Positions 1,429 to 63,458 of a stretch of DNA of 64,000 nucleotides are shown here, piece after piece. The notes under the pieces are model-generated. The model was not told the DNA's origin, searched no databases, and worked only from the letters and a program-made list of their open reading frames with translations. Source of the DNA: Rugalucina vietnamica (lineage: Eukaryota > Mollusca > Bivalvia > Lucinida > Lucinidae). The stretch's first letter is position 1; each line of letters begins with the position of its first letter. The stretch is from positions 53,782,856 to 53,846,855 of the forward strand of contig OZ024874.1 of assembly GCA_964017185.1 (NCBI GenBank). Reading direction: 5' to 3'. A program made the position numbers and the translations under genes.

Positions 1429-1469
1429 GTGGACCTTCAAAAGAGCATTAAAACTATGGTTCACTTTAT

Positions 1470-21158: not shown

Positions 21159-21604
21159 TCACCGTGACCTAATAAAGGCAAACCGCCCATCATGGGAGAA
21201 TATGCATTCATTCTCACCTTGGAAAGCATTTTGTCCTGTATAATCCGCACCGAATCTGTAGTCTGGGTATCTGAATTTTGTGTCCGTTGACTTCCCATAG
21301 TCCGCACTTGAAAAATGTCCCGTCCGAGCAGATTGCAATAACAAAGAACTAATATTGGAATTGTAACGTCCGGCACCCATGGCTGTGTACGGAAAGTCAT
21401 AGTGCATGGGTCTGTGGTGAAATGTGTGTGACTGTGAACTGAGTCTTGAGAACCAAGGGTCCTGTAAACCACTGAATCCGGGAATGGTTGAAGAAGGGTA
21501 ATGTCCACTAGGAAACTGGAACTCGGAATAAAACGGTCCCGGGGAATAGTAATTGCTGTTCCAGAAACTGGGCGGGAACTTTCTCTGTGACATAAGCGAC
21601 GGAT
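21159..21604 (-). CDS. vg: vg-like exon 3 (C-terminal, terminal coding exon)
   Basis: The acceptor TTTATTTATTTCAG precedes ATCCGTCG; with the G from exon 2 the first codon is GAT. It encodes about 148 residues: MSQRKFPPSFWNSNY near the start, a Phe/Tyr/Pro/Ser-rich region, FHHRPMHYDFPYTAMGAGRY, then the LLLQSARTGHF block. The last residues are AFIRSR before TGA at 21161-21159. The overlapping second frame on the same strand is a shadow. Aromatic- and Ser/Pro-rich composition fits the disordered activation region of this family. Confidence 0.85.
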
Positions 21605-22837
21605 CTGAAATAAATAAACAAAATACATGTAATAGAGAATTTATCACGTTTGCCTATGACATAAGCAAGGTATGAAATATTTCTCCAATACAAGGGCATG
21701 GGCCAAAATTTTTGCGATTATCAATTTGGGGCAGGCCAGTCACGGCTATTTACGCTTTACTTACGTTACATACGTTACACAATGTTAGATTTAGGCATAC
21801 TTTCTTCTTTTTTCTCTTTCTTTCCATGGTAATGATGTAGAATTTATAATGTCGACCAAAAACTATATTAACTCTATCAGTTATATTCTCGGTCGGAAAA
21901 TTAAATTTTGCAGGAGATTTGCTCCGATAAACCTTGTAATCTCTTCTCATCTCTCCCTCTCAATTCCAAGGGTAGGTTTTCAAAATAATTGGAAACAAAT
22001 GCTGCACCGTTTTACTGTAAGTATTTCTTAAACCTTGTTTAATTTGCGTACAAGCACATATAATGCTGTTTTTATGGAACCATAATTTGTTTCAAAACAG
22101 TCTTTTAGTCTGGATATGTGTTTGACACTTGTTTCATAAATTACAACCAGTTAACAACGGGTTAGAAATATTACCACGTTAATTGTTTTATTATGTAAAC
22201 ATTAATTAAAACTGTGCCACTTAAATTCCCTTAAATCTGTATTTCTTTAGCAGAATTCGGCAGAACTTATTGCTCGACGTTTTGACGTCCCATGCGTGAG
22301 ACCTGCCAAAATTTAGCAAATTGTCTGAAAACGATAAAATGAATAACGGACTCTGAAAAACAGCAGGGGAGCGTTGTTAACGGTTGTAATGAAAGTAACA
22401 GTTTTTAAATTGACAAGCGAAATGAATATATGAAATTAACAACGCGAAAATGATTCGTGTAAGTTTCATCCGATGATTGAAAGGTTGAAATGGGGGAAAA
22501 CAACGCCAACAAAATAAAAGACATCATGCGGTTGAAAACCGTTTTGACATGTTTGAAATTAGAGGAAAAGTTCCGTTTCAATTAAAAAGCTAGTTTCTGC
22601 ATGTTATTGCATGGGATGACTCCTACAGGTGGCTAGCTTCCTATTTTGACACTTTAATTTTTCAGGGTTGTCAATATACTGGTGGCATTTTAGCGGTATC
22701 TCTTTCCAAGAAATGTGACATGTCATGGGAATTTGAAATGGAAATTAATGGGATTAGGGTCAGAATGTACAAGCACGCGCAATATGACTGCAAATTTTAA
22801 TGAACTGGGCTTCTTAGACAACATATCGTCGTTCTTG

Positions 22838-24290: not shown

Positions 24291-27200
24291 CATTTGACAG
24301 TCACATTCACTGCCACTGTTATAAACATACATGTATACATGTATGAATCATATCAAATCATATGTCCTTAAATTTTGGCGGGACATTAAACTCCAAATCA
24401 ACCAACCATATTATGTTTATGCACGGTATAGGCTACTGAAAAGACATATTTGCGTACATAATCAGAGATAAATCTAACAAGAAGTTCGCGCCTGATGCCG
24501 ATAGATCTCTGAGGTGTTTTATATTGCGGGAGCAAGTGCGCTTATCGCAGTTTATCTGATAAGGTAATTTGATTCCAATATGATTATTATGTCTTATCTT
24601 TATTACATAAACTGTTCAAGAGCACTCAATTGCAGCTACTTAAAATTTATGGAAACACTTATTCCATATTTTTTCTTATCTGTTCCAAGTTGAAGTTTCA
24701 TTGAAATACAACAAGGACGAGCATCTAGGTCTTGTGACGAATGTTATACTTTGAAGCAGACAGACGTTGTTCAGAGCAGCCTAATAGCATATCAGCGCTT
24801 TAGATTTTCGTGCGATTTTCAAAACGCGGGTTTCATATTATTGCAGCATACTTTGCAAAATATGACTGGAAGCGTGCGTCAAATTAAGATCCCTATCAAC
24901 GACAAATATTTACAAACTGTCTCAAAGAAAGACAGGAAAAAATACTGACAGTTGACAAGTATTTAGATATGAAAAAAAATGTTAGAAACTTTGAAAGTTG
25001 AAAACCGACACTTTGGATCTAATGCAATAGCAAAACCTATGCGGGTGACAGGATTAGACCGTCATTGTGATTTCCGAGGGGACCCAACTCAGTCATAGAC
25101 TACGAATATGAAATTGTTCTTGCTAGTAGGCATAAGAACAACAAGAGCAATAATAATAATAATAATAATAATAAAAATATATTGAACGATAACACACTGA
25201 AGAAGAAGAAGAAGAAGAAGAAGAAGAAGAAGAAGAAGAAGAAGAAGAAGAAGAAGAAGAAGAAAAAGAAGAAGAACAAAAACAAGAAGAAGAACAAAAA
25301 CAAAAACAAGAACAAGAAGAAGATGATGAAGAAGAAGAAGAAGAAATGTATGTAAAGAATACATGTAATTATAAAACATGTAAACCCTCACTAACCTTTT
25401 GAAGTTTTGTTGCTCTGATTCTCTGGGCTGTAGCTACTGGGCTGACTCAGTGACCGGGTGAAGTGATCATCCACCACTGTCGAGATATCACCACTGTAGT
25501 ATGTCATCAAGACACAAGTCGCCGACAAGTACTGGGTATCCTTTGGCTGCTCTGGCTTCTCGCTCTCTTTGAGCCCGAGGGTTGAGGGCGGCGACTGGCC
25601 GATACTGGATCCGTGTGGGCCGAGAACTGTGCCATGGTGGCCGAGTGAGGGACCCGGGACTGGGTGCCCGAGGCTGCTTGTGTGAGGCGGGTATAGGCCT
25701 AGATCCAATGGCTCTTGAGACTTTGGAAGACATAGTGACTGCAAAGAAAGTACAATTAAGAAATTCCGAAGTCTTAATTCCAGTAAATCACATTGAACAT
25801 GAATTTGCTTCACCAGTGTATCCAGTGATATTTTGTGACGTTATCATCATTTTGATATGAAAGAAATATTCCTAGAAAATGTGATATCCAAATAAATTTT
25901 AGAATATTTAAGTTTAAGGTGCTAAGATTTAGACTGATCAATCCGAAAGTTTTCAAAGAAGTGCTGACAAAAATATCAACGTCTTATATACCGCCATACG
26001 GACTCCGTCAGAAAGACAGGAATGTCCATTTATATTTCTCAGAATGTTCACATAATAAAAAGTCTTGTTGAAAGATAAAGAGAAAAGAATGTGCGACTCG
26101 AAAAGGATTCCTTGATATTCGGGTACCTTCAATGCCCGGAATCCACAAATATGCCCTAAGTTTAGGGAATTCATTGACAGAATGTTTATTGCCCTAAGAT
26201 GCCATTCAATAAATTCATAAAGTGCTTAGAATCTAAATAGCTGTTGTAAGTTATTCTGGATATCTTATCTCATGTCTTACGTTTTACAAACGGAACGGTG
26301 TGCACACAATTTATTTTCTTGTCTACGTAACGAGATAAAGACTAGAGCAATTGGCGTTTTGAATTTACATTACGAAAACACGCCCATTCAATATACACAG
26401 ACTTTTTTCACCTGTAAGAATTGAAAATTTCATCAGAAAAAATTTGATATTTTTCTTATTTTTGCTCAAAACATAGTTTTTGGGTACACGTTAGAACCGC
26501 CTCGGCGAGGCGGTTCTAACGAGTACCCACAATCTATGTTTTGGAGCAAAAATAAGAAAAATAGGTGTACCCCTGCAAACCCCCAGTTTTACTATATAAA
26601 AGTGGGGTATAAGGGGGTATTTATTTCACGGACATGTTTTCCTGATTATCACTTCTTGTGAATCTATGTCGGTAAAATTTCGGAGAAGCTGGAAAAAGAT
26701 ACATACTCCAAACTTTGTACTATCTTTTTACCTTTTTTCGAACAGGCAATTCAAACGTCCATTTTATTTGTGGTGCACCATTATAATTGGCGCTTTAATG
26801 TATCGCTTTTAAGTAGATACGTAGGTCCTTTGCTGTCGTGTATATTTCTCGAAGTTTAAACATATTTGTTTTAGAGTTCGACATAACGTACAAACACGAT
26901 TATTGAAAGTAATTACAAATTATAGGATAAGAACGAAAGCACAAATACTTATAGAAATCTTCTCCAACTTTATTCAAATCCCATGAAACTATAAGTACAA
27001 TATGAATTAGGATGCCATTAGAATAATTCATATACAAAACTAAAGAAAGTGTTTCATATCGGAAGCAAATTGTTTGTGGGAACAATGCTTAATATGCTTA
27101 TTATGAAAATATTTGTACCATAGTTCGATGAGTAATAGAAATTAGGAGAACTATTTCCCCCGATCAGATATGCCAATACAATGACATGAATTCATGTCAA

Positions 27201-30076: not shown

Positions 30077-30159
30077 TAGTGCGGGTGGGGCTCGAACCCA
30101 CGCGGACATTTGTCCATTGGAACTTAAGTCCAACGCCTTAACCACTCGGCCACCGCACT
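30077..30159 (-). tRNA. tRNA-Leu, anticodon TAA
   Basis: On the minus strand the acceptor stem AGTGCGG pairs fully with CCGCACT, and the discriminator base is A, as in leucine tRNAs. The D arm is GCCGAGTGGTTAAGGC. The anticodon arm TTGGA-CTTAAGT-TCCAA gives anticodon TAA. The long variable arm GGACAAATGTCC marks a class II tRNA, and the T arm is GTGGG-TTCGAGC-CCCAC. Five Ts follow directly at 30076-30072, a Pol III terminator. There is no intron. All stems pair, so it looks functional. Confidence 0.93.
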
Positions 30160-37708: not shown

Positions 37709-37730
37709 ATGTTTTGTCGAATCTTACCAG
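37709..37730 (+). CDS. Candidate start exon of receptor gene A (signal-peptide start)
   Basis: ATG TTT TGT CGA ATC TTA CCA G, then GTAGTG, ends in phase 1, exactly the phase needed by the next exon. Joined, the protein would start MFCRILPVCLYVVKVVPSKT, which has one basic residue and a hydrophobic stretch like a signal peptide. The evidence is only phase and composition. The alternative is an unspliced start at ATG 37877 (MCFVFFIAVCLYVVKVVPSK), also signal-like, but that stretch coincides with a polypyrimidine tract plus CAG that matches the acceptor of paralogue B. Confidence 0.35.
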
Positions 37731-39750
37731 GTAGTGTCACTGCCTCATATAACTTATGGTCTGGTTGTCAGGCTAAGAATATCCATGCTGATCTTAGAGA
37801 ATCTATGTAAGGGTATTTAAACGGTTGATTCAGATCTTTGACTTCTATCTTAATTCTTGAAATTTAAAAATACAGTATGTGCTTTGTTTTCTTTATTGCA
37901 GTTTGCCTATATGTTGTCAAAGTGGTCCCTTCTAAAACCGTTGAGCTGACAATCACATCTGGTTCTGTGAAGAATGATCAGGATAATCCATTTAAGTGTG
38001 ACACCAGTGAACGGATCGAACTTAATTCGTACACCTACAAATACAGAAAGTCCGGAAAATGGACAAAGTCGTACCAGATCCATCACCCTGAATTACTTTT
38101 TTCTGCATGCTCATGGAAACAAACATGTAATATAACAGATATGTTGGTTCAAAACATCACGAAAAGCACTAACACTGGTGTCCTGAAGATAGGATACAAC
38201 TGTTTAGGTATTGCCTTTTATGATACTATGTGATATCAATCACACAAGTGGAAATATCACTATCGGTGAAAATATCACTTTTAGTCATTTTGATATTACA
38301 TTGATCACACTGCTAAGTACGAGTACGTACATGTATAAAATAAAACTCAGTGTTTCTACGTTACCCAAGATATTGATCATGAACGTATAAAGCATAAACA
38401 CTTAAATCATAAAACAATTACATGTACAATGTAGTAGCCCGCTGTATGTTAAGGATATCATGTACTGAAGAATCTTTAAAATATAGTTTAATGGAATGTC
38501 TATGGAAAGCCACAGTAAAATATAATAACCGATATTCAAGGTACCCGGAGTGCTGGAACAGAAAGAACCAAACAACCTGCATCATTTAGTTGCAACATTA
38601 TTATTACTTATCGTTTTAATCTGAACAATTGTTTATTCTGATTCAGTGTTTCTATTTGCAGAAGAGAATATTCGAAGGAGCCTTTGCAATACAACTGCTA
38701 CAAACATTAGAAGAAGCACAACAAATTTGATCTTTGATGCTGCTGACGTTGCTGTGGGAACGATGACCAATATTTGCTCGTGCAATATTACGGGGCATTT
38801 CAAACTTAAGAATAAGGACATCAGAATACAAAGATTTGATACAAATAGCTGTCCTTCTGTTTCTGCGACAGGATGTAAGGACGGCAATTGTATAACTAAA
38901 GAAACGAACTGTTCAAAGTGGCACAGTGTTGATATATGGATATCACAAAATGTTAAGAACGGCTACATTTCTTTGACCGGGCTTTCCAGTTTGAAACCTC
39001 CCTCTTTTATATGGATCCAAATAGTAAACAGATGTGAGTATCCTACTTGTCCTGGTACATGCTATTTGACGATCGATATCATTGAATATACATGTATTAA
39101 TGCTGCAGAGTGGTGACTATATTCAGAAATGGACAACACACACATGTTACATGCATGTTTTTAAAACATAGTTTATACTAGACAAGTTTAATAACTATAT
39201 ACAATCATGCAAATCTATAGTAAGGCGCACAATGCACAACAGAAACTGCTGGTAATAAGAGTTGCATGCTCATACACTTAAGTCTTGATTTTGGGATATT
39301 TTCCAAACTAAAACTTATATGGAAATGTATATGCTAACTTGTCCTCACTTTCCTCTCTACATTCTTTTACCACCACGTCTCAACGGGACTATCTAAAAAC
39401 CTTGATGTGTATAATTCGGCAAATAGTAACTGTATAGGCGGCAACTTTAATATTCATATATGGGCGTGGTCGGCTAGTCCATCTCTTCAAGTAGGGATAT
39501 TATAGAAAAGTCGAACTCAGTCAGCCTAAAGTGATGTCACATATTTACCGTTAGTGTTCAGCTACCTGTATTTTGTCCAATCCAGTGAATTAGACAAAGT
39601 CGTATTTCAATCATATTTTCTAACGGAAAACATGTGAGTTGAATCTTTTAACTGTATACCTTAGGCTTTTACATAGGTCAAAAGTAGACCATACCCAATA
39701 ACGTATTCACGAGGTAACGCCCATACAGTAACCTATTTGCCGAATTATAC

Positions 39751-39786
<36 letters not shown>

Positions 39787-42700
39787 CGTAAGTAAGTAAT
39801 AGTTTATTAAAGTGTCACATATCAACATCACATATATATACAACATTTTAAAGACTAAGAGTTGATACCCAGCCATAATTGGCTTACGAGACACTATTAT
39901 CACAATTTAAACATTCATTATACAGAATCATACATTCATAGAACACATAGAACACATACATATTCAGTCCATTACAAAACAAATATTTACAAATGGATCA
40001 GTAAAAACTAAACCTAGGAATCATTTGAGTGAGTCTAAAACATTTAAAAGCACCTTGAATTAAATAATTAAACAGTTGTTTTCAAAATTGGCGGGTTTGT
40101 TAAGACACATGGTTAAGTTAAAATGAGATAATATGTTCAGTCCTTATTAAAACAAGGAGTTGGTAAGAGTGTAGCTTGAGATTAAGATTCAATGAAATAA
40201 AATTCAAGCTTAAAGTGAATTTTGGCACAGTATATAGACATGTACGGCGATACAGACCAGATTTTGTATAGTCACTATGTCAGCAATCGCAGACTGAAGT
40301 TGCATGTCATAAAACTTATAAAGAGTTTTACAAACGCCTACATAACAACTTTATATCTGTCCATTTCGCTTTGAAGAATGTTAAAATTGATTTCCGTTCA
40401 AGTGATGAGCAAATAAACACAAATCATTTTCGGTATACTACGAGGGTGGGTCAGAAAGTTCTGTCCTGGGTGGTATAACTTTGTTTATAGACATGAATAA
40501 TATTATGTGCGTTCCATGCGTTACATCCTTATAACTACCAATCCAGCTTTACAGTGATAAATAATAGTATATTTATAAAAGCTATGTGACAAAAATTACC
40601 GTTGTCGTTGCTATGTTTACTTTATAATAAAGCGATATATATGACGTCATTAAAATACGTACTCCTATGGCATTTCTGGCACCGCTGAACCATTATATTT
40701 GCTTGCTCTTTTATGAGTTTACTATAAAGTACACTAGAATGAAACAATAAAATGGTTAAATGCATTTTAAGCTCTCTGGTCTACCTGTAGATGCCAATAA
40801 ATGCCCTTTGAATTTACAGTGTACTTTTAAGTATGTACAACGAGCCAATTCAATGTTTCATTTTGCAATAACTCAATTAAATTATTGAATTAGTTTTATT
40901 TTTGCAGATATATTCATCTATATCTGAAAAATATATTGCATGGGTTATATTTTTTCGAAGTCATTTTCTTTAAATAATATTCATAAATTCAAGAAAACGT
41001 GCCATTTGTTTTACCCCAGGTGTCTTTCAGGGCGACTATTTCGAATTATGTTTTTCTTTTGTGCATTATTTTGGCATCATTATAAAGGAGAAATGCAGCC
41101 CTTTCAATCAAGGTATCATACAGCAACCTATCATGTCTATTAACAAAGTAATAACACCTTTGACAGAACTTTCTGACCCACCCTCGTACGATTAAGTTAT
41201 TGTGTTAGCCCTAGAGCCAGCAGTAGGTTTAATCATGTTGTTGAAGTCAAATGGTTTGAAGGCATGCTCTGAGACAGAAAAGTATGTTGAATTAAAAAAA
41301 TAAGTCTTACAAAAATCGGACGGTACACAACTTGACAATATGCGAACGAATACCCCCGGCATGACTCCCTTTTAAAATAGCGCCGAAATGGAAATAAACA
41401 TACAATATCAATCATATCTCAGAAATTACATTGAATGTGATATCAAATTAAACCACACCCCTTTCATCTCATGGTAACATTTGCAAATTATCTAATTTGC
41501 ATATTCATGAATATTAATGAAAACATAGAAAATCACTAAAAAACAGAGAAACACTGTGGTACCCCGGAAGCTCATTTGAACTACCTTGCACCACCATGTG
41601 TGCCAAATCGTTCATTGGGACCCCAGAAATGAACAGAATGTTTGTCCTCATAAACTAGATAAACATGTTTGCACTATGAAAAAAAATAAATGGTTTCTAT
41701 GGCAACTGTTAACGTGATTCTTGAGCATGGGGTGTACATATACAAAATTGGTCATATCTCCGCTATTGTTTATCCTAGACCCCTGATCCTGGTTCAATGT
41801 TAAAGCACAGCCATTGTTCTTTTGTACTATGGTAAGTTATGCAATATATCGTATTTGCATATTTATTAATTTTAATGAAAACATTAAAAATGACTGAAAA
41901 ATGATTAAATTCCATAACTAATTAATTTCAGGCCCAAATTATTATTGTGACACTTTGGTATTAAACTTAACAAACTTTATTTCACTCAGGTCATATAAAA
42001 TGACATGTGAGGTTCATACAAATATGTTATACAACAACTAGCGGTTAGGACTATCATCAATACAAAAATAATATAGAAAATGACAAATGTTTAAGTATTT
42101 TGTGGGGGTAGGTGGCACAAGAAGCTAGCAATGAAAAGCAACAATGTTATCTGTAAGTCAGATGATATTGTTTGCGAGTATTTTCTATCTTTCCAATAAT
42201 TCCAGGGGAGCAGATAGAACAAAGTTGGTTATAGAAGAAAGAAAAGGAAGAAGAGAAGAAGAAGAAGATGAAGGAAACAAGTGTACAAATGAAAAATATG
42301 ATTCTTAGAAATGGTTACTTATGAGGTATTAAGAAAGACGTTTTTGCAGTAAAGATTCGGTCTAGCAAAGTATTTTATCTTTTCGCAAATCATCTCTCTC
42401 ACAGCATGGCTAAACAGATTTAAATTCCTCATCTACATACACATCTGCATACACATTATGTCAAAAAATATAAATAATTCTTCCTATTGTCTATAAGAAT
42501 ATGTGTCTACGAGAATAATTATAAACAAGTAGGGCGACAGTATTATTGATATCTTCAAAATAAGCTTTAAAGTGGATTACTTTCCTTACAAACTACTGGT
42601 CAGTAATATCATATGACAAATTTATTGAAGTCATGGGCCTAAATAAAATCATCTCATTTGCATTTTCATGAATATTAATAAAAAATGTCGAAAGTCGAAG

Positions 42701-45700
42701 GAAAAACGAGGGGAAAACTATAGCCATTGATAGCTTTCGGATGGGTTATTTATCTTGCATCCCTGAAACCAATTTTTATGGCTGCCAGTGTGGCCAGATG
42801 AAAAACCGAATTGCCATAAAAATTGTGCTCAACAAGCCTGATGTAAAATTACATAGTTGCCACACCCACCCCTAATGTGATTCTAAAGAATAGGATGTAC
42901 TCACAAAATAGTCAAACACCAACAAAACATGCTCTAGAATACTACAATTGGCCTGATAGTGATTTTTCAAATCATTGAATTTACTTATTCATGAACAAAA
43001 CATTAATACCTAATTTTCAAATCATTGAATTTGCTTATTCATGAACATTAATATAACACACAAGAAATCGGAGAGAATTCTTGGAAAATAGGGGGCATAC
43101 CTACAAAGTCACTAGTTCTTTATCTGATAACAAACCCAGGATGTTGAAAGAAGTATAAAATGAATGCTATGGCAATGTACTATAACCCTTAAGTCTCATT
43201 TAAGAATGACCTGAATTTCAATTTCACGAGTTTTAATGAAAACTTCATAAATATGCATGGAAAAGTGAAAAATAAAACGATTAACCTACAAAATGACTTG
43301 TACATGTATCTCGGCAGTCAAAAGCCTTAACATGCTATGAATGGTATCAAATGATTGCCAGTGCAATATTATATCATCCTGTACTCCAATACACCTCGTA
43401 TAAGTAATTTGATTTTTCATTTTATGAAGAGTAACAAAACCTTTCGAATATAGAGGACAATTACGGAAAAATTAAGGCGGTATACATAGAAAAGCACATG
43501 TATCTTGGCTCTTGATAGACATAGAGAGCTATAATTGGTATCAAATGATTGCTAGGGCAATGCTCTATAACCATATAGTCTGATAAATAAATCATCAGCT
43601 ATTTCTGTTGAACGGATATTAGTGAGATTTATAGAGATAAATGAAAACTCAACGAAAAATGAAGGTGGTATACCAACAAAATGTCATATCTCTACTACCA
43701 ATAGCTTCAGAGAACTCAACATGGCACCAATATATAGCTATGACAATGTTTTATTGCCATGCATTCAGATATAGAAGGCATGCTTGCTGGCGACCAAGAT
43801 TCAATAAAAATCGTCGGAGCACAAGCTTCAATTTTCTGTTAATATTACAATATTTTGAAAATTAATATAATATTCACAAAAATTAAAAGAAAGTATTGTT
43901 AAGCAACCAGACTGCATGGCAGTAGTGCATTGTCCTACAATAAAATATAAAAGTTTGATCCTTTCGAAGCAGTAAACACGTTACAAAACGTTCAAAGGGA
44001 GGTAGTATGGGCCATATTGCATAATTTCGGGTACTGAACACTCAACAGTGACCCTTTATAATCTGGCGACAATAGCCAGATAAATATACTGCAATTTCAA
44101 AAAATTACACAAGGGTTGTCTAAATCAAAGACACATGCCTAAAAGGGGTTAAAAATTGTAACAATGTTTAGAAGATGGCTCTAAACGACAAATATTTTGA
44201 TATATTCTTACTGATCTCAAAGGACCGAAAGAAATAATATAATCTGCACTATGGATGATGTAGGGGGAGACTTTTTAGGGCCGCCGCACGGCTCAACGCC
44301 AGCTGCAGTAATCACAAATAAAATATAAAAGTTTGATCTTAATCAAATCTATTGGTACCATTTTCAGCGCATTGGGTCCTGAGTTTATTTAAATGGTCGA
44401 TAACGACACATTACGAACGGCTGGAGGGGTTGGAGGGTTCCAAGGACGCGAATAAATTCAGCGTATGGGCTGGCTAGCATGTCCTCCCAACATGAACTCG
44501 ATTGAGCATGAATGGGATTGTCTAGAGATAAAAATCGCGGCCTCTAATGTTTTATGTTGAACGCGGGAAAGTCTAGAACGTGAGGTTGTAGACGATCGGG
44601 GTATGATTCCTGATGCGGACATCCGGAAGTTGATTTAGAGCTTCCGGTCACATTGCATGGAAGATATACAGTTATCAAATATCGGGCTAACATCTACGGC
44701 CTTGGTGTTGTGAAAAGAAGACAATTTCTAAATTTTACTACCACACACACACACTGTGTAAAATAGCCGGAGGGTAGTGTATTGACATGTTCATTGACAA
44801 GTTAATTGTCGGTTGATTTAAAGGTTTTTGGGGTTAATTGGTTAGGGTACCCATTGAAAATTTATTAAACATCATAAAATAAAGTGAATTATTTGACATT
44901 CACTAAATTTGCAAAATTCAATGTCTGTCATGTCTGGCCCTTGAACTGGACCCAGTATCGATTTAAGCCCTCCAGCGGTTTCTTTTTTGACCTCTTTGAT
45001 TTATCCTGATATCGTGTGTTTAGTCTGACAGTGTCTGTTTCTGTGTTTTGCTCACCATCTTCGTCTTGATGGATGGCTACCTTGCTAGGGAAGAGCTAGT
45101 CACCTTGCTTGTGAATAATGTGATGTGTTGTGTTGTCATTTTTTGCCTAGGTTCTGCGTAGAGATTTCAAGAAGTACATGATGTAATAGTTGAACGCGAA
45201 ATTAAATAAGTTTGTCTATAGTTGAGGGTATTTAGCAAATTAATTTGAATAAGTGTTTTGTTCTGATTAGGGAGTTATCGGTACAGTGTCAGATGCTCAT
45301 CATCGTCATATGTATCCACGACTACATGGGCGACTAAGGCAACCTCGTCAAAAACAGAAACGACAACTATAGAAGTGACAACAACCACGGCCAATGAGAA
45401 TTCAGAACAAGCAACAAAAACAGAAAATACAAGCTTCTCTGAAAGTACTGAATTGTCCTCATCTAATGCATTGTCATTATCAACATCGGCACTCACTCCA
45501 AGTCTGCACAAGGCGGGTATGTATATCATTTAAGGGTATATCACTGTGGTGTGCAGATTCTTTGCAAGAAATTACTGATATCGATTTCATCATACACGTA
45601 CTGTCATTGTGGCATTGTATAAATACAAACCGATAAATGATTGGTGACACACATTGCAATTAAGACCGAAGTTGAGGTTAGATTTTCGAATTTTCTCTTA

Positions 45701-48373
45701 TAGGATTTATTCTTCTGATTGATAGATATGTGCAGGCAATGCAGAAATTGAACATTTATTGAAAGAAAGTAGCAAATAAAATCCCGTTTATTTCGTTTTC
45801 GCAAACACTTCAAAGTTATTGTGTTGGAAGCACTATACTTTCATTTTTTTATGTGTTTGCGGAAACGAAATAACCTTGATTCCTTATGTTACTTTCATAT
45901 TTTTCATCTCAACTTCGGCCAGAATTGCATTGTGCGTCACCCAATCCGTACCACGTATTTCTTAGCTGTGTCAATGGAAGTGATATGAAATTTTAAATAT
46001 ACATGGGGTGATCGGAAAATACGTATAAAAATCTTGTCATTTCTTTAGCTTTTGATATTTCGTGATTAGGGGTTGAATTTGGGTTCAGGACAACTCCGCC
46101 CAAAAACAACTTTTTTTTCTCATGTACAGTTCAGAGAGGCAGCAGCAAAACTGACTAAACCGAATCAAAATACTGGGCCGAGATGTCTTTAACTGGGCCA
46201 AGTTGTCTTTTGAATTTGGGCCGAGTTGTCTTAATCCGAGATTTTCCTGGGCCGAGTTGTTCAGGACCCAGTTGTCTTTGGACCGAGTTGGACGTTATTC
46301 TTTTATCTAAGTTTAGAAAATGAAACCGACGTTTTGACATATTTTACGCTAGCCTCTTATAATGATTCAATTCTGCTGTAGTTTGAGCCCTTTCCCCAGC
46401 AAATACACACAGTTTATCTGAGATTCATATTATTTCCAACATTATTTTTAGTGTGCTGCAATAATCAGAATCACATATGTTAAGTTATGAATGCATTGTC
46501 GCATTCAGTAAGAACAAAACCTTGTAAGCCAAATTTATCCATTGAAAGCAAACGATTTTCTCACTGATATATATTGGAAGACGTTGTGAATGACGATTTG
46601 TTCACAGAGCTGACAAAGCTCCATATGCAATCAACTGAATGAATTTGAACTAATTATATATTCCCGTTCTTGAGAACAACATTAAATAACATTTTAGCAA
46701 AACACATATCTGATAAAGAGTTTACTGAGCTTTCATTTTCAGGTGACGCTCTTGAAAGCAAAGCGAATACTGCAGTTGTTGCTGTGCCGGTAGCTGCCGT
46801 GATCTTGGTCATTTGTGTGGTTGTTGTTGTTGTTATTATATACCGAAAGTAAGATTTTTTTCATGGTTTTCACATTTTGTTACACATGTTTTCCATATGG
46901 CAAATAAGCAATATGTAACTGCGCTTATGGTGACGTTTGTACTTCAAGTTTAGACGAGTCGATTCGTTTTGACACATGAGTTATCATTACTGTTATCATT
47001 TTGACACATGAGTTATCACAACTCTCATTACTGTCTATTCACCATCTTCTAGAAATTGTATTTTTCAAAATCTCACTTTTCTGAAAGACCTGAAGAAAAC
47101 TATTACCAAGTCACCATTTTGCATTCCCAAAGTTTTAAAAAGTGCCACAAAAATTTTGAAAATCGGTTAACAAATAAAAGTTTTATGCTAGAAAATAATT
47201 TTGAATAGGGCCTTTTCCATTGTAAAAATGTCAGCAAGTGAAGTAACTATTTTCCCGGAAAAAAATCTAAATTGGTTATTTTTCATTTAAAATGCATCAA
47301 ACAAAAATAAAATTTTATTGCATGCATTGCTGGGCACCAAACACTTAAAATTATTCCACAGATTTGCATGATTTTCAGTTTTAATGTTTTGGATTACCTC
47401 CCTTGTTCATGCAAAATACCTATTGAAACTATTTTTGGGCTTATTTATATTATTAGTGAACCGATTTTTAAAACGTTTGCGGCACTTTTTACGACTTTTG
47501 GGTTGCAAAAAGATGACATGGTCATGGTGTTTCAGAATAGTGAGATTTTGAAAAATGCAGTTTCTGAAAGATGGTGTACAGACAGCAGGCAAAATAGCGT
47601 TAACTTTGCTTACCTAAGTCTTGTAACAATCATCTACAAGTAGAGTAGGATACAATTTAATACGTCTAGTTATAATTTGTCTCCCACCCATATGAGTGTT
47701 TTGGGAACGATAGGTTTTCATTTTAAGGCTGGCACTGAACATTGTCCTTGCAGACTAGGTATTTCGTTTTTAAAAGTATGCATTGTCATTCTTGCCATTA
47801 TTTCTAAAACACAGGCGTCGTCGCAAACAGCAACTTGAAGATTATGAAGGCAAACGCATTTCTAATCCAACATATTTAGATACGAGAAACGCCAACAACA
47901 ACGGTTCCAGTGGAATACCGAATGAGGGAATGGACACATCTGCGAGTGGAATGCCAGATATAACCGAAGCTAATGACTATAGCAATATCGAATTACCTGA
48001 CAATGAATACAATGAGATGAAATGTGAAATTGACGACGAATATAACAGAGTCAATTTTACAAACAGTCCAATTCCGTTTGATGATAATTACGGACACATT
48101 AATGCAACTAATAACATTGTCAATGACTATGACCATATCAAAGGAATGCAACTCACAGACACTCAGTCCTATTCGAAAATTTGTCAACAACGAACGCTAC
48201 CCAAAGATGCTGACGAAACCAACACTACATTGAATGCACATCCTAACGATAGGAACAAAAGTTCCGACAAATGTTCTGCCACGTATGACCATTTAGGCCA
48301 GACGAATGAGTACGGGAAACCAAATGATGACCAGGATAATGAATACTCTCACATTCATTCCGGCTCCAACTGA
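37709..48373 (+). CDS. Receptor gene A: single-pass receptor, SUEL-like domain, ITAM-like tail
   Basis: Five firmly placed exons (37902-38207, 38662-39033, 45271-45516, 46743-46848, 47815-48373), plus a weak start exon at 37709-37730, give about 536 residues. Order: signal peptide; ~100-residue Cys-rich domain; 124-residue Cys-rich domain; Ser/Thr-rich stalk; transmembrane helix; tail of about 185 residues with 11 tyrosines. Internal junctions are phase 1 up to the transmembrane exon and phase 2 after it. A close paralogue (gene B) follows in tandem at 53.8 kb with the same exon plan, which supports the model. Likely a cell-surface receptor signalling through tyrosine phosphorylation; ligand and name unknown. 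A TGA ends the tail early relative to further open sequence (see 48374-48586). Confidence 0.72.
37902..38207 (+). CDS. Receptor A exon: N-terminal SUEL-like domain
   Basis: 306 nt, phase 1 to 1, from TTTATTGCAG|TTTGCC to TTTAG|GTATTG. After a hydrophobic start (VCLYVVKVVPSK) the domain reads VELTITSGS, FKCDTSERIELNSYTYKYR, PELLFSACSWKQTCNITDML and GVLKIGYNCL. The pattern of an early Cys plus ERIxLxSYxY, a middle CSWxQxC, and a final GxLxIxYxC parallels rhamnose-binding SUEL/Gal-lectin domains, though the usual YGR and FGDPC are absent. Paralogue B keeps the Cys and Trp positions. Possible N-glycosylation at CNIT and QNITK. Confidence 0.75.
38208..38661 (+). other. Receptor A intron
   Basis: 454 bp, GTATTG...TTTGCAG. 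Nothing recognised inside. The homologous intron in gene B is 4.6 kb because of inserted elements. Confidence 0.7.
38662..39033 (+). CDS. Receptor A exon: second Cys-rich domain
   Basis: 372 nt, phase 1 to 1, from TATTTGCAG|AAGAG to ACAGAT|GTGAGT. It encodes SLCNTTATNIRRSTTNLIFD, ICSCNITGHFKLKNKDIRIQ, NSCPSVSATGCKDGNC and NGYISLTGLSSL, and ends PPSFIWIQIVNR. Alternating hydrophobics suggest a beta-sandwich. I do not recognise the family. Gene B's matching exon would be the same 372 nt without its 13-bp duplication. Confidence 0.75.
39410..39750. mobile_element. TIR element in receptor A intron
   Basis: TATAATTCGGCAAATAGTAA and CTGTATAGGCG on the left; the complement CGCCCATACAGTAACC and TATTTGCCGAATTATA on the right. 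About 340 bp with no coding sequence. A TA duplication may be hidden in the terminal TATA. Confidence 0.7.
39751..40436 (-). mobile_element. LINE 3' end, reversed, with (GTAA)n
   Basis: A GTAA run (39753-39799) is the complement of a (TTAC)n LINE tail like that at 36935. Beyond it, minus-strand TATTACTTACTTACGTACTT and GGCTGGGTATCAACTCTTAG look like a LINE 3'UTR. No RT frame can be read, so the left limit of the copy is approximate. Confidence 0.5.
40441..41186. mobile_element. Mariner-type MITE
   Basis: CGAGGGTGGGTCAGAAAGTT at the left has its exact complement at the right, and similarity extends inward to about 50 bp (TTTGTTTATAGACATGA against the complement of TCATGTCTATTAACAAA). TA flanks both sides (40439-40440, 41187-41188), the mariner target. 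746 bp with no transposase frame, so non-autonomous. Confidence 0.85.
41400..43870. repeat. Degenerate tandem array
   Basis: Units of irregular length (roughly 200-400 bp) are marked by TTTGCATATTCATGAATATT plus AATGAAAAC near 41495, 41860, 42655, 42985, 43030, 43220 and 43420, and by CAAATGATTGCCAGTGCAAT type phrases (43349, 43545). Units are much diverged. A (GAA) patch lies at 42240-42270. Confidence 0.6.
43955..44165 (+). repeat. Dispersed repeat family F5, copy 2
   Basis: Blocks in the same order as 22918: GATCCTTTCGAAGCAGTAAA, TTCAAAGGGAGGTAGTATGG, GTGACCCTTTATAATCTGG, CCAGATAAATATACTGCAAT and CTAAATCAAAGACACATGCC. Confidence 0.6.
44400..44700 (+). pseudogene. Tc1/mariner-type transposase C-terminal remnant
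   Basis: One frame reads GWLACPPNMNSIEHEWDCLE, a decayed form of the Tc1 block DWPARSPDLNPIEHVWDxL whose Glu is the last catalytic residue. A stop follows in IAASNVLC; then VDDRGMIPDADIRKLI, another stop, and SFRSHCMEDIQ correspond to the usual C-terminal region. It is internally stopped and lacks the rest of the gene. Confidence 0.7.
45271..45516 (+). CDS. Receptor A exon: Ser/Thr-rich stalk
   Basis: 246 nt, phase 1 to 1, from TTCTGATTAG|GGAGTT to AAGGCGG|GTATGT. It starts SYRYSVRCSSSSYVSTTTW and continues as a Thr/Ser/Glu-rich stretch (TETTTIEVTTTTANENSEQ, SFSESTELSSSNALSL), ending PSLHKA. It aligns at its start with gene B's YNVSCSDITSVVST. Such stalks are usually O-glycosylated spacers that hold binding domains away from the membrane. 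The minus-strand frame here is a shadow. Confidence 0.75.
45517..46742 (+). other. Receptor A intron with foldback element
   Basis: 1.2 kb, GTATGT...TTTCAG. It contains a TIR element (45641-45944) and, at 46180-46290, several copies of GGGCCGAGTTGTCTT, a short local repeat. Nothing else recognised. Confidence 0.65.
45641..45944. mobile_element. Foldback MITE in receptor A intron
   Basis: TTGGTGACACACATTGCAAT with CCGAAGTTGAGG on the left; CATCTCAACTTCGGCC and GAATTGCATTGTGCGTCACC on the right are the complement. An inner pair, TATTTCGTTTTCGCAAACAC and GTGTTTGCGGAAACGAAATA, forms a second hairpin. Confidence 0.7.
46743..46848 (+). CDS. Receptor A exon: transmembrane segment
   Basis: 106 nt, phase 1 to 2, from CATTTTCAG|GTGACG to CCGAAA|GTAAGA. 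It encodes DALESKAN, then a hydrophobic run TAVVAVPVAAVILVICVVVV plus VVII, then the basic YRK. The next exon adds RRRK, a clear stop-transfer signal giving N-out, C-in (type I) topology. Gene B has a matching exon at 63356. Confidence 0.85.
46849..47814 (+). other. Receptor A intron with long foldback
   Basis: 966 bp, GTAAGA...AACACAG, mostly filled by the inverted-repeat element at 47025-47595. Confidence 0.65.
47025..47595. mobile_element. Foldback element with ~140-bp arms
   Basis: Left arm: CACCATCTTCTAGAAATTG, ATTTTTCAAAATCTCAC, AAAAAGTGCCAC and TTTTGAAAATCGGTTAAC. Right arm carries the complements: GTGAACCGATTTTTAAAAC, GCGGCACTTTTTACGACTTT, GTGAGATTTTGAAAAATGCA and AGATGGTGTAC. The 91-residue frame across it is a by-product. 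Confidence 0.7.
47815..48373 (+). CDS. Receptor A exon: cytoplasmic tail with tyrosine motifs
   Basis: Phase 2 start: the first base completes the codon of the Lys after YR; then RRRKQQLEDYEGK follows. About 185 residues, acidic and Asn-rich, with 11 tyrosines. YxxI/L motifs are YSNI, YGHI, YDHI, YSKI, YDHL and YSHI; YNEM and YNRV are near matches. YGHI-x9-YDHI and YDHI-x10-YSKI (48089-48181) both fit the ITAM rule YxxI/L-x6-12-YxxI/L and share the middle tyrosine. In known receptors phosphorylated ITAMs bind tandem-SH2 kinases (Syk/ZAP-70) and single YxxL sites bind SH2 phosphatases. TGA at 48371-48373, after HIHSGSN. Confidence 0.8.
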
Positions 48374-48586
48374 TCAGCTGGAGCGCAAATGCACAATCCA
48401 AATACATGTAGAAACAACTCATGTTTGTCTAATCCACACATGGAGGAGACTGTAATAATGAATCATGATTATTTCATTCTCGATCCAAATGCTGACATTC
48501 AGCGTTTGAGCAGCAGGGAAGCTGAAGACCATAGCGATTGCGATCATCAATATTTCGTTTTGGAGCCGGAAGGTTCAGGCTCTTGA
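48374..48586 (+). CDS. Possible in-frame extension of receptor A tail after TGA
   Basis: The frame stays open past the TGA for 70 codons to a second TGA at 48584-48586. It reads SAGAQMHNPNTCRNNSC, then HDYFILDPNAD and DHQYFVLEPEGSGS. Two matched blocks, DYFILDP and QYFVLEP, each give a YxxL motif and acidic context as in the tail before the stop. No acceptor is obvious at the boundary. Explanations: a recent stop mutation, a sequence error, stop-codon readthrough, or splicing around the stop. Confidence 0.45.
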   Translation, partial: SAGAQMHNPNTCRNNSCLSNPHMEETVIMNHDYFILDPNADIQRLSSREAEDHSDCDHQYFVLEPEGSGS

Positions 48587-53829: not shown

Positions 53830-54111
53830 TTATGGCAGTTGTTAGCACGGTGGAATCGAAAAATGTTACGTTAGAAATCAGTGGAGGTTTTGTTAACAAC
53901 ACCAAATTGCTCTGCAGTGCCAATAAGAGAATCCAACTTAACTCTTACCGATATCGACCACGAAACGGTGGTATATCAGTGATTCAATTCCCAGAACATT
54001 TGTTTGCTGCATGCTCTTGGAGACAAAAATGCACGCTAACAAATTGGTTGGTCCGGAAAATGACAAACAATACAGTCAATGGTCAACTATACATAATCCA
54101 CGGATGCCCGA
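53830..54111 (+). CDS. Receptor B exon: N-terminal SUEL-like domain
   Basis: 282 nt, phase 1 to 1, from CTCATTTTCAG|TTATGG to GCCCGA|GTAAGT. It encodes VMAVVSTVESKNVTLEISGG, LLCSANKRIQLNSYRYRPR, PEHLFAACSWRQKCTLTNWL and NGQLYIIHGCP. Shared with A: the V-x-L-x-I start, C-x(4)-RIxLNSYxY, PExLFxACSWxQxC and the final Gly-x-Leu-x-Ile plus Cys. Intact and conserved. Confidence 0.75.
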
Positions 54112-54134: not shown

Positions 54135-55634
54135 CCAGAGGACCTATGGTTCTGTTAACGCTCACCTGATACCTGAGATATATACCAATATCCAGAACAA
54201 CCCCTGGGGTTAATTTCTTTTTCAAATCATAAAAATCAAGTCCATTTGCCATTTACTGCAAGCTTTGCCCTTCATATGACATATAAATTTTTTAACAATT
54301 TTCCTCATTCAAATGCATGGGCGACCTAAGTTGACCTTGCCATAAAATAGGTCAAGGTCATCCAAGGGTTATGATTTATATAAACTTTGTAAAGCTGTAT
54401 TGCCTGATGCTTCATGCCAAGTTTCAAAATCGTTGGCCTTCTGGTTCTGGAGAAGATTTTTTTTTAAATGTTTTTTGCTATTTATAACCATAAAGGCCAT
54501 CTTGGTCATGTGACCTTGACCATGTCTATAAACTTTTATAGCTCTTTTCTAATGATGCTCCACACAAAGTTGGCTTTGATTGGCTTAACGGTTTCAGAGC
54601 AGATGATGTTGGAATAGTATGGTCATGTACATGTATATAGCCCCGGGACAGGGGCAGACTATCACCTAGGGACAAATCATTTTCATAAACATAAATATTC
54701 TGTCTATTTGCCCATTTCCTACAAGTTCTGCCCTTCAAATCATAATTAAACAATTTTCCCCATTCAAATGCATGGGCAACCTATGTTGACCTTGCCGTAA
54801 AATAGGTCAAGGTCATCCAAGGGTCATGATTTATACAAACTCTGTAGAGCTCCATTGCCTGATGCATCGTGCCAAGTTTCGAAATCATAGGCCTTCTGGT
54901 TCTGGAAAAGAAGAATTTTAAAGGCTTTTTCTATTGATAGCCATGGCGGCCATCTTGGTCATGTGACCTTGACCATTTATATAATTTTTCATTGTCCTTT
55001 CCTAACAATGCTCCACATAAAGTTTTGCTTTGATTGGCCAAGCGGTTTTAGAGAAGAAGATGTTTGAATAATATGGTCATATAAATGTATATAGCCCCGG
55101 GGCAGGGGCAGACAACCCCCTGGGGACAATTTTTTTTGCATAAACATAAATATTCTGTCCATTTGCCCATTTCCTGCAAGTTTTGCCCTTCAAATCATAT
55201 TCTAACAATTTTCCCCATTCAAATGCATGGGCAACCTAAGTTGACCTTGCCGAAAAATAGGCCAAGGTAATCCCAGGGTCATGATTATACAAACTTTGTA
55301 GAGCTCCATTGCCTGATGCTTCATGCCAAGTTTCAAAATCATAGGCCTTCTGGTTCTGGAGACGAAGATTTTTTTTAAAGGTTTTTGCTATTTATAGCCA
55401 TGGCGGCCATCTTGGTCATGTGACTTGGACCATTTATACAAACTTTGGTTCCCCCTTCCTAAGGTTGCTCCACATAAGTTTGGCTTTGATTGGCCAAGCG
55501 GTTTCTGAGGAGAAGATGTTTGAAAAGTGTGGACGACGACAACGACGATAACGACGATAGACAACGACGACGACGGACGACGGAGCATGGTTATACTATA
55601 AGCTAACCTGTGAGCCTTCGGCTCAAGTGAGCTA
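54135..55634 (-). mobile_element. Tandem-unit element R1, copy c
   Basis: On the minus strand: TAGCTCACTTGAGCCGAAGG, satellite GTCGTCGTCGT (55530-55585), three ~455-bp units, and GGTCCTCTGG at the end. YY1-like GGCGGCCAT words lie near 54946 and 55403, and a degraded one near 54491. T flanks both ends. The antisense frames here (54526-54753, 55388-55846) are repeat translations. Confidence 0.8.
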
Positions 55635-56741
55635 AAAACGCATAGCATGAATCGTAGTCGGGTAGCATGTTTCACGTCAATCCACGATGGACTAGTGGCT
55701 TGTGCCGCATACTCCGGTATGAGAGGTTGGGCGTTCTTTATTGGCTTGAGTTGTGTCCTTGAGCAAGACATATTCACTATCCCATAGGGCACAACGGTTG
55801 CCATATTCCATATGGCGGAAAACGCTTTTGGCGTCTTCAAGTGCAAGAACGATACCCGTAGAAACCTACACGGTTGTCGACGAATTAAGTTTTCAGTCAG
55901 CTCACCTTAGAATATTTCTTTTGTTTTGTTATTGTTTTATGCTATCTTTATCGCCGTTGATAAATGGGCCACAACATGAGAAAATGTACCTTCGGACAAT
56001 ATTTTGAGTATTAGAAAACCAATCTTACGTTGAATGTATAATGGTTCTAGAGTCTAATAGTCTTTATTTGACCAGATTATTCAAATTATTTTGTGACTTA
56101 TGACATATTTTCTATATGGACCCTTCAGACGTTATTGTCCTGAAAAATGACGTCAAAGTTGCGTAATTACATTACTACATGCAAGTAGAACCTACAAAAC
56201 TCGATGTATTTTCTTAAAATTGTTTCAGCATTGGCCAGAACATATTGTTTAGATACAAGCATATCATTCTTACAGTTAATCTGTCGACATTGTTTTGTCT
56301 TATTATGTCACTATGTGGTTGCTATGGTTAAAGGTTGTCGATAGATATAGGGAAATTTAGTGTATAATGGGCTAAAACAAAGGCAGATAACTCCAAATAT
56401 TGGAACTAAATATGTTTTAAAACTCATTTTGTGGGTAGCCCAGTGTTCGAAGATTACATTTACATTGCTATTTCTAAAACATAAAAATCATGATTTTGTG
56501 GCTTTTGAGCAGATTTCTATTAGGAACGTCATAATGTCCGAAGGTACATTTTGTCGCGTTGGGGTTCAAATGTGATAATTTTAAGTTTATAGCTCCACAA
56601 GTTTCATGTTTTTTATGGTTCACTATTGCCTCCGACAATTGCGTGGTCAATTGGTCATTTAGCAAAGTTCTGTTTCGAGTTCAACAATAATTTTATTAAT
56701 TGCAAAAAGGATTCACCCAATAACAGTGTTAAATATAATTT
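55635..56741. other. Unassigned intron sequence between two R1 copies
   Basis: No exon with paralogue support is seen. Short frames lack domains. Confidence 0.45.
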
Positions 56742-57801
56742 TAGCTCACTTGAGCCGAAGGCTCACAAGGTGAGCTTATAGGATGGCCATGATCCGCGTG
56801 CGTCCGTCGTCCGTCGTCGACCGGTCGTCCACAATTTCAAAGATCTTCTCCTCTGAAACCACTTGGCCAATCAAAGCCAAATTTTATAGGAAAAGGTACA
56901 AGTAGGCAAAGATCATAAGATCAGAAGCCTCTATACGAAGGGGGAAGAAAATGTATATGACCAAGATGGCCGCCACCCCATATATGGTGAAAACCTTTAA
57001 AAATCATCTTCTCCAGAACCGGTAAACCAATTTCAACGAAACTTGGCACGACGCATTGATGGCTAAAGCACTATAAGGTGTATATAAATCTTGACCCTGT
57101 GATGGCCTTGACCTATTTTGCGGCAAGGTCAACATAGGTCGCCAATGCATTTGAATGGGGAAAACTTATAAAATGCCATTTATAGTGAAAGTCTTGCAGG
57201 AAATGGACAGTAGGACTGAATATTAATGATTCTGAAAAAAATGGACCTCAGAGGCTCATATGCCCTCCATCCCTGGGCAATATACATGTATATCTCCGTA
57301 ATATTCAAACATCTTCTCCTCTGAAACCACTCGGCCAATCAAAACAAAATTTTATTTGAAGCATCTATAGGATATGGTTACCAATGTGTATATAAATAAT
57401 CCAGGTCACACGACCAAGATGGCCGCCATGCCCATATATGGTAAAACCCTTTAAATATCTTCTCCGAAACCGGTAAACCGATTTCAACGAAACTTGGCAT
57501 GAAGTATCAATGACTCAAGTACTACAATATATACATAAATCATGACCCTGTGATGAATACTCTATAAATAACCCAGGTCGTATGACCAAGATGGCCGCCA
57601 TGCCCATATATGGTAAAAACCCTTGAAAAATATTCTTCTCCGGAACCGGTGGACGGATTTCAAAGAAACTTGGCATGAAGCATTGATGGCTAAAGAACTA
57701 CAATGTATATATAAAGCATGACCCTTTGATGACCTTGACCTATTTTAAAGCAAGATCAACATGGATCCCTTTGCATTTGAATGGGTAATAAAATATAAAG
57801 G

Positions 57802-58134
57802 TCTGGGGCTAGTAACTCGAAGGCATCGTAAGTTCCCCTTCTCACGATCTTAAGATGACCACCTTAGAATGTACGCCCTTGCTATTCCAGCGTCTCTATA
57901 CTATCGTAACTTTTTAAGTGAAAGGCGCCACTTGTTTTTTTAAGTGAAAGGCGCCACTTCGTAAGATAATACGATGCTAAGTTGGCTTGAGTTGGCCGTA
58001 AAGTTACGATGCTGTTAAGTTGTCACCGTAACTTAAGGTCCTTTTCAGTTATTCACCATAATCCCTAAGAGATACTTAAGTTGGTCGTAAGATGATCATA
58101 AGCTTAAGATGGCTTTGAGTTACTAACCCCTGGT
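57802..58134. mobile_element. TIR element nested in R1-d
   Basis: CTGGGGCTAGTAACTCGAAG and GCATCGTAAG on the left; CTTAAGATGGCTTTGAGTTA and CTAACCCC on the right are the complement. Many short CTTAAG/TCGTAA words are inverted inside. A 22-bp phrase starting TTTTTAAGTGAAAGGCGCC occurs twice at 57911-57960. Confidence 0.7.
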
Positions 58135-58330
58135 CCTTTGGAAGTAGTAAAAACTTTCAAAGGGAGATAGTATGGACTATATTGCGCAATTTCGGGTAAT
58201 AAACCCTCATCAGTAGCCCTTTTTAAACCGGTAATGAACGCCAGACTATTGTGCTGCAATTTCGATAATTTATACGAAAAGTCTAAATCAAAGACACATT
58301 CCTAAACGGGCTCAAACAATCAAAACATTG
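58133..58330 (+). repeat. Dispersed repeat family F5, copy 3
   Basis: GGTCCTTTGGAAGTAGTAAA, TTCAAAGGGAGATAGTATGG, AACCCTCATCAGTAGCCCTT and CTAAATCAAAGACACATTCC, in the order seen at 43955. Confidence 0.6.
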
Positions 58331-58691
58331 CTTTGAATGTATATATCTAAACGTAAGTGGTTTGAACACTCTGAAAACTCTGAACACTATCTCTGAAAAC
58401 TGCTAACATGTCATTTGAAGAGAAATTGGCAAATGGACAGAAACAGAATATTGATTATTCTGAAAACAAATGACCCAAGGGTTTCATCTGCCCCTGCACT
58501 GGGGCTAAATACCATAATATCCAAACATGTTTATTGGTATATGTAGCAGATCTCAGGTGAGCGTTTACAGAACCATTGGTCCTCTGGTTTAAGTTAAAGC
58601 TAGAAACACGAATAATACATAGCCTTCCGATTTATTTGATGATGTGTTGTGTTGTTATGCTGCTCTGAACAAGTAACCTAATTTCTTTTAG

Positions 58692-59076
58692 ATGTAAACG
58701 GTGCAAAGGACCTTTGTAATACAGCTCTATATAGAAAGGGGAGCTTGAAAGGGGAGCTTGAACCTGGTGTTCGATTCTTCACATCCATCAATGTCGCATG
58801 AGAATGGTCAGAGATCGTGCTTTTGCAATGTATATGGTGTTTTTCAACTACAAGTGAAGGATATACGACTGACGCATGTTGAACCTGTCAATTGCCCCAG
58901 TGTCTCGGTCAATGCATGCAGTGCCAACGGCTGTAACTCTACCGAATCAAATTGTAGACAAGGTATAATTTTGAATAAGATAGTTTCAAACAATGCCAGG
59001 AGTGGAAACATATCAATAAAAGGTCTTTCAATGTTAATGTCACCATCACTTATATGGATACAAATACTACACAAGA
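58692..59076 (+). pseudogene. Receptor B exon: second Cys-rich domain, frameshifted by 13-bp duplication
   Basis: 385 nt, exactly 13 more than the homologous 372-nt exon of A. AAAGGGGAGCTTG occurs twice in a row at 58735-58747 and 58748-58760. Before it, the frame reads DLCNTALYRKGSL, like A's SLCNTTATNIRRS. After it, the original frame continues from NLVFDSS through RSCFCNVYGVFQLQVKDIRL, NCPSVSVNACSANGCNSTES and PSLIWIQILHK, all aligned with A. As it stands, translation would enter the wrong frame and meet TGA at about 58799. Splice sites TTCTTTTAG| and AAGA|GTAAGT are intact. Confidence 0.8.
58735..58760 (+). repeat. 13-bp tandem duplication in receptor B exon
   Basis: Two perfect copies of AAAGGGGAGCTTG with no divergence, so a recent slippage-type event or a sequence artefact. 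Confidence 0.9.
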
Positions 59077-59195
59077 GTAAGTACTATTTTATGAAAGTTT
59101 GTTTTTGCTACCCATTAATTTGTTTAAGTTTACTATTGTAATAATATAATTTAATGTTACGTACAAGGGCTGATCCTTTCATAAAAAAAAAAAAG

Positions 59196-59230
<35 letters not shown>

Positions 59231-59305
59231 TTCAGACATTTGTCGGTTTCTTTATATGTGTAATTATGCGTGGATCGTTCGCTATGTATTTTTGTGTCTT
59301 GTCAG
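59077..59305 (+). other. Receptor B intron with poly-A tract
   Basis: 229 bp; contains a poly-A run at 59182-59225. Confidence 0.7.
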
Positions 59306-59569
59306 ACAAGAACTGGTACAACGTCAGTTGTTCGGACATAACTTCGGTTGTTTCAACAAGTCCAAAAACTGAGTCCACGACAACTGATACTGAAAAAACG
59401 ACAACAATTCCTGAATCAAAAGCAACAGATACTGAACTAACAGCTACGGAAAGTAGCACAGCACCTTCAGAATTTGAATCAACATTGCTATCAGAAACGG
59501 TGACAAAAAGGACTGCAAGCTATGAATCTACAGAACCAACAGGAGCGACCGACACAAGAAAGCAAGCAG
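59306..59569 (+). CDS. Receptor B exon: Ser/Thr-rich stalk
   Basis: 264 nt, phase 1 to 1, from CTTGTCAG|ACAAG to AAGCAG|GTGTGT. It encodes KNWYNVSCSDITSVVSTSP, then TESTTTDTEKTTTIPES, ELTATESSTAPSEFES and SETVTKRTASYESTEPTG. Thr/Ser/Glu-rich like the stalk of A but with different repeats, as expected of a fast-changing spacer. Intact. Confidence 0.75.
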
Positions 59570-59732
59570 GTGTGTGTTCTTCTTGCAATTGGTGCTTGAT
59601 TTTGTAAGTCGGTTTATGACCACAATGAAGATCAAATGATGTAGATGATTTGAATTTGACAAGGCGTTCACAGCAAAAAGCATAATTAGTAAAAAAAAAA
59701 AAAAAACAACAACAAAAACAAACAAACAAAAA

Positions 59733-63355: not shown

Positions 63356-63458
63356 ATGACACACACGAGGAAAGTACACTTCCAGTCATTGTGGCAGTGA
63401 CCGTTGTTGTTGTTTGTGTTGTTATTACAGCAGTCGTTGTAATGGTCGTTTATTGCAA
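63356..63458 (+). CDS. Receptor B exon: transmembrane segment
   Basis: 103 nt, phase 1 to 2, from TTATTCACAG|ATGACA to TTGCAA|GTAAGT. It encodes DTHEESTLPVIVAVTVVVVC then VVITAVVVMVVYCK: a short acidic juxtamembrane piece, then about 26 hydrophobic residues. It ends in the same place and phase as the exon in A (VVIIYRK). The following tail exon is outside the window. Confidence 0.8.

Follow-up and report, generated by a model that had tools for sequence, protein, structure and literature searches.

In the lucinid bivalve Rugalucina vietnamica, a putative surface receptor gene (gene A; plus strand, 37709-48373 of a 64,000-nucleotide window, which is the whole stretch analysed and corresponds to C6:53782856-53846855 of a 1.09 Gb assembly in 47 contigs) ends in a cytoplasmic tail with paired tyrosine motifs resembling an immunoreceptor tyrosine-based activation motif (ITAM), and the spacing of one pair is retained in all four copies of the gene found in the genome (A, B, C and D). 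Judged from its sequence, gene A is a real receptor-like gene predicted to encode a single-pass type I membrane protein. The best explanation, toward which we lean modestly, is that it is a type I receptor of a small, unstable family in which the conserved ITAM-like pair is predicted to dock a tandem-SH2 kinase.

Gene A consists of six exons; its introns have GT/AG borders, the junctions are in phases 1,1,1,1,2, and the spliced frame encodes 536 residues in the order signal peptide, Cys-rich domain 1, Cys-rich domain 2, Ser/Thr stalk, transmembrane helix (VAVPVAAVILVICVVVVVVII, 21 residues), the basic segment YRKRRRK directly after the helix, and tail, with six N-glycosylation sequons ahead of the helix. 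A first-pass annotation had described two Cys-rich domains on symmetric 1-1 exons, a Ser/Thr stalk, a type I transmembrane helix, RKRRRK and 11 tyrosines in the tail (counted before the stop), all of which are present in gene A. The proposed exon joins are borne out by copy C (contig C3:25775001-25785000, minus strand), which is without four of the five introns and aligns with gene A in one frame across junctions 2-5. Exons 2-6 are fused in copy C and one 178-base intron is kept inside the signal peptide; its product is an undamaged 520-residue frame, colinear with that of gene A across the same junctions, with a much shorter stalk. We infer that copy C probably descends from a mostly spliced transcript, and it therefore bears on exon joining in gene A; that it is a complete retrocopy is ruled out by the intron retained within the signal peptide. 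The start of gene A is ambiguous: the signal peptide that begins in exon 1 at 37709 is weak (best 10-residue hydropathy 2.05), and an alternative ATG at 37877 gives a stronger-looking one (3.19) but crosses the polypyrimidine tract of the acceptor. The signal peptide of copy C is itself divided by a phase-1 intron, and for this reason we favor the separate exon 1 of the first-pass annotation. Pfam matches to the gene A stalk and helix (16 families up to an expectation value (E) of 1, the best being TMEM154 at E 2.3e-05) were each under the cut-off and were attributed to composition.

Comparison of the four tails of this one genome revealed a conserved array, YN[KR][IV]-x12-Y[GS]HI-x9/10-YDH[IV]. 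Two ITAM-spaced pairs had been named for gene A, and both are present in it: YGHI-x9-YDHI belongs to the array and is kept in four of four tails (as YDHV in D), whereas YDHI-x10-YSKI occurs in gene A only and is not conserved, because B, C and D have YSNG, YAND or FSND in place of the third site, YSKI. The conserved upstream partner, YN[KR][IV], differs from the second named pair. Two YxxL/I motifs at a spacing of 6-12 residues are found in the A, B and C tails; the YGHI-YDHV pair of D fits this spacing rule only if valine is allowed, and YNKI-x12-YGHI is also present there. In 20,000 shuffles of the 186-residue gene A tail the mean number of ITAM-like pairs was 0.034, and 0.135% of shuffles reached the observed two; for the other tails, two or more pairs arose in 0.065% (B) and 0.225% (C) of shuffles and one or more in 2.8% (D). 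Since shuffling ignores motif evolution, we place more weight on conservation than on these frequencies. Gene A does not reach the Pfam ITAM model PF02189 (E 0.16, 12.9 bits versus a cut-off of 22.2), and "ITAM-like" is therefore a statement on spacing and conservation. Read in that sense, a resemblance of the conserved paired tyrosine motifs to an ITAM is supported, and binding is only predicted.

A possible, though doubtful, alternative is that the tail is a multi-docking platform and no ITAM, each YxxI/L, NPxY and YFxLEP motif recruiting its own SH2 or PTB adaptor (Grb2, PI3K and Shc/CED-6 types) in the manner of engulfment or growth-factor-like receptors, with the ITAM spacing a by-product of tyrosine richness. 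Ahead of its stop, the gene A tail holds six YxxI/L sites together with single NPxY, YxxM and YxNx sites, which would suit such a platform, as would the score under the Pfam ITAM cut-off and the presence of the distal YF[IV]L motifs among the invariant columns. It accounts less well for the unequal retention of the sites: the spacing from YxHI to YDH[IV] is x9 or x10 in all four tails, against two of four for NPxY (A and B) and one of four for YxxM, with YDHL and YSHI each kept in three.

If the conserved pair does act as an ITAM, both Cys-rich modules of the ectodomain, the second of them perhaps CUB-like, would bind ligand on cells, microbes or matrix, and ligand-driven clustering would allow the paired YxxI sites to be phosphorylated by a Src-family kinase. 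A tandem-SH2 kinase of Syk/Shark type would then dock on the two phosphotyrosines together, and the membrane-proximal NPxY of A and B may add a PTB adaptor. Such wiring would equal that of oyster CgCLec-HTM and fly Draper.

The genome searches with tail and ectodomain scored the best candidates only, and the family may exceed four copies; among the matches listed, only A, B, C and D fell below E 1e-9, with three others at E 0.6 to 6.7. One search listed five matches, the fifth at E 0.6, and another listed eight (A and B twice each, C and D once each, plus two at E above 1). Copy B lies directly downstream of gene A, in the window and beyond it, and copies C and D lie on contig C3. By eye, the introns of B (window 54300-61700) hold many repeat copies reading 'ggccatcttggtcatgtgaccttgacc' and similar. 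Copies C and D are alike over about 2 kb (77%); D has in-frame stops and a repeat between the exon 1 region and the remainder, and the notion that D has no exon 1 was ruled out by a 77% match to the region of C's exon 1. In all 12 pairwise comparisons of the tails, nonsynonymous divergence (dN) was below synonymous divergence (dS), which was saturated in one. Before the stop position discussed below, dN/dS was 0.29/0.80 for B-C, 0.29/0.50 for B-D and 0.24/0.39 for C-D, while dS of A versus the other tails is near or at saturation, where ratios carry little meaning. On present sequence evidence, the four copies found form a small and unstable family whose ITAM-like core is conserved.

The tail of gene A contains an in-frame TGA at 48371-48373 that the first-pass annotation did not mention. 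That annotation placed the end at 48586, and the frame does reach a TGA there (48584-48586), but 213 bases beyond the earlier stop. Copies B, C and D have an arginine codon at the position of the earlier TGA, and their tails end in EYFILEP and QYFVL[EK]P. In columns invariant among B, C and D, gene A agrees at 37 of 65 before the TGA and at 14 of 25 after it, and this similar agreement on both sides suggests that the distal tail was under much the same constraint until recently. The TGA removes the last 70 residues of the gene A tail, including two YF[IV]L[ED]P sites, and leaves the ITAM-like core intact. Most likely it is a recent truncating variant: at 0.05 substitutions per site a neutral frame of this length escapes a further stop with probability 0.70, and at 0.2 with probability 0.28, so that the open frame fits a recent loss and readthrough is not required.

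A programmed or read-through stop at 48371-48373 is less likely. The broader proposal that the TGA is a functional switch, with regulated readthrough or a segregating stop giving short- and long-tailed receptors, we hold to be highly improbable. The 70 open codons past the TGA, with YFILDP and YFVLEP kept, speak for it; against it stand the arginine codon in the other three copies, the neutral expectation just given, by which recency alone explains the open frame, and the base after the TGA, which is T, a poor context for readthrough. It is also unlikely that gene A is itself in decay, as a pseudogene or null allele, with a working family member elsewhere, such as copy C. Lesions are found in three of the four copies (the TGA in A, a frameshift in B, stops in D) and only the frame of C is undamaged, as such decay would have it, yet gene A bears a single lesion, its six exons are without frameshift, conservation is equal on either side of the stop, and what remains still encodes the full ectodomain, the helix and the ITAM-like core.

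The ectodomain was less readily assigned. Domain 1 had been called lectin-like with an expected SUEL fold, an identity that our results do not sustain: domain 1 of A, B or C had no match to Gal_lectin/SUEL (PF02140) in Pfam at E 10, comparison with SUEL by hhalign was non-significant (P 0.058), and a structure model from two-sequence input (pLDDT, the predicted local distance difference test score, 54.8) was uninformative, with no significant structural matches. The SUEL hallmarks are eight Cys, a YGR and a DPC motif, all invariant in nine solved repeats except for one Cys that falls beyond the aligned region in some rows; A, B and C keep four Cys in domain 1, where YGR and DPC were not found. 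A likeness to SUEL/rhamnose-binding lectins (latrophilin, CSL3) is visible by eye in a C-x5-C followed by a final Cys 24 residues on (25 in latrophilin), but with only four of the eight Cys, neither YGR nor DPC, and no significant profile comparison. Domain 2 was modeled as a CUB-like beta sandwich at low confidence, with Z scores not clearly above those of unrelated beta sandwiches; among the rows listed for this model, CUB proteins make up 38 of 50, several of them taken to be such. Unlike CUB proteins such as Neto2, neuropilin, MASP and spermadhesin, the pieces of domain 2 from all four copies have no Pfam CUB match at E 10. A resemblance of domains 1 and 2 to each other was dropped after hhalign.

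Receptors that carry their own ITAM are known, and the designation "undescribed receptor type" in the first-pass annotation is too strong, as both oyster C-type lectins with an ITAM-type tail engaging Syk and the Draper ITAM have already been described. What is left of the claim is an ectodomain of unclassified type attached to wiring already known; less expected are the stop that truncates the tail, the damaged tandem copy and the copy lacking most introns. Among vertebrate receptors, FcgammaRIIA and CEACAM3 have a built-in ITAM and, like gene A, combine a ligand domain and an ITAM in one chain; homology to them, compared through Pfam only, was not shown. NPxY is a feature of the Draper/CED-1/MEGF10 group and occurs in A and B, whereas the EGF-like repeats or EMI-type ectodomain of that group found no Pfam match in gene A. 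Drosophila Draper has the ITAM in its own tail, as gene A would, where it is reported to be read by the SH2 kinase Shark after Src42A (PMC10366216). The oyster membrane C-type lectins CgCLec-HTM and CgCLec-TM1 are reported to have an ITAM-type (hemITAM) tail and to signal via CgSyk-ERK-Rel (PMC13027682, PMC12842671). Like gene A these are invertebrate surface proteins with their own ITAM-type motif, the transmembrane segment of CgCLec-HTM being C-terminal; they differ in joining a C-type lectin ectodomain to a half or non-classical ITAM, whereas the gene A ectodomain has no Pfam match to a C-type lectin domain and its motif is paired.

Syk/Zap70 homologues are reported only in invertebrates with CARD-CC and Bcl10, molluscs being among the holders of Bcl10, and from this co-occurrence the same study infers ITAM-containing upstream receptors in invertebrates (PMC5978004). 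If the conserved pair does bind a Syk-type kinase, the gene A family would be a candidate for these upstream receptors and would add a non-C-type-lectin kind to the known invertebrate receptors bearing an ITAM. It would also be a family with fast gain and loss, as seen in the tandem copy, the copy without most introns and the lesions in three of the four copies found. A more far-reaching reading, to which we attach little credence, is that gene A represents a new self-contained class of invertebrate ITAM receptor, in which a tail stop at a fixed point splits the ITAM core from a distal YFxLEP module, two unclassified small domains (one possibly CUB-like) are joined to a conserved three-tyrosine ITAM array, and short- and long-tailed forms coexist in the population or family, the paired YF[IV]LEP module perhaps being shared with other receptor genes of the genome. 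No paper on the four-part domain order was found in a literature search that covered subscription papers thinly, and no search of bivalve proteomes was made, so absence in print is not established.

Table 1. Features of gene A and its tandem paralogue B (window positions unless a contig is given).
Feature	Location	Strand	Remarks
Gene A exon 1 (putative), signal peptide start, phase-1 end	37709..37730	+	ATG ... G|GTAGTG; split signal-peptide exon matched in copy C; weak by itself
Gene A exon 2, signal peptide end and Cys-rich domain 1 (4 conserved Cys)	37902..38207	+	domain 45%/49% identical to B/C
Gene A exon 3, Cys-rich domain 2	38662..39033	+	CUB-like in low-confidence model
Gene A exon 4, Ser/Thr-rich stalk	45271..45516	+	both junctions bridged in copy C
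Gene A exon 5, transmembrane helix	46743..46848	+	mean hydropathy of 21 residues 3.5
Gene A exon 6, basic anchor followed by the 11-Tyr cytoplasmic tail	47815..48373	+	ends in TGA 48371-48373
ITAM-like tyrosine array (coordinates of the first-pass annotation)	48089..48181	+	YGHI-x9-YDHI conserved; YDHI-x10-YSKI gene A only
Frame open after TGA, 70 codons with YFILDP and YFVLEP, then stop	48374..48586	+	B, C, D read continuously into region
Paralogue B, domain 1 exon	53830..54111	+	
Paralogue B, domain 2 exon carrying a tandem duplication of 13 bp (12-mers at 58738 and 58751)	58692..59076	+	frame shifted
Paralogue B, Ser/Thr stalk exon (borders approximate)	59306..59569	+	
Paralogue B, transmembrane exon (borders approximate)	63356..63458	+	
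Paralogue B, tail exon	contig C6:53852435-53852986		beyond window

As a genome-wide marker YF[IV]LEP was rejected, the motif alone not being enriched (141 places versus 184 for a reversed control pattern), and among the 30 loci returned for it a tail of the family type was seen by eye only in L038-L040, which are copies D and C. The YF[IV]LEP DNA pattern also occurs in closely spaced pairs, like those in the tails of this family, at C6:18583716/18583857 and C7:64367290/64367389/64368030/64368126 (spans C6:18583716-18583873 and C7:64367290-64368142). Judged from the positions of the pattern, further receptor genes that share this distal module may lie at C6:18.58 Mb and C7:64.37 Mb.

Elsewhere in the window, a Vestigial/Tondu domain (PF07545, E 2.6e-15) is encoded at 25394-25840 on the minus strand and a weak TEADIR3 match (E 0.006, under cut-off) at 21162-21653 on the same strand; the two are probably one vestigial-like minus-strand gene upstream of gene A. 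An open frame of 237 residues at 1452-2165 (plus strand) has no Pfam match at E 0.01 and is presumably similar to a reverse transcriptase fragment. A tRNA-Leu-like sequence with anticodon taa at 30077-30159 (minus strand) may be a gene or a tRNA-derived repeat.
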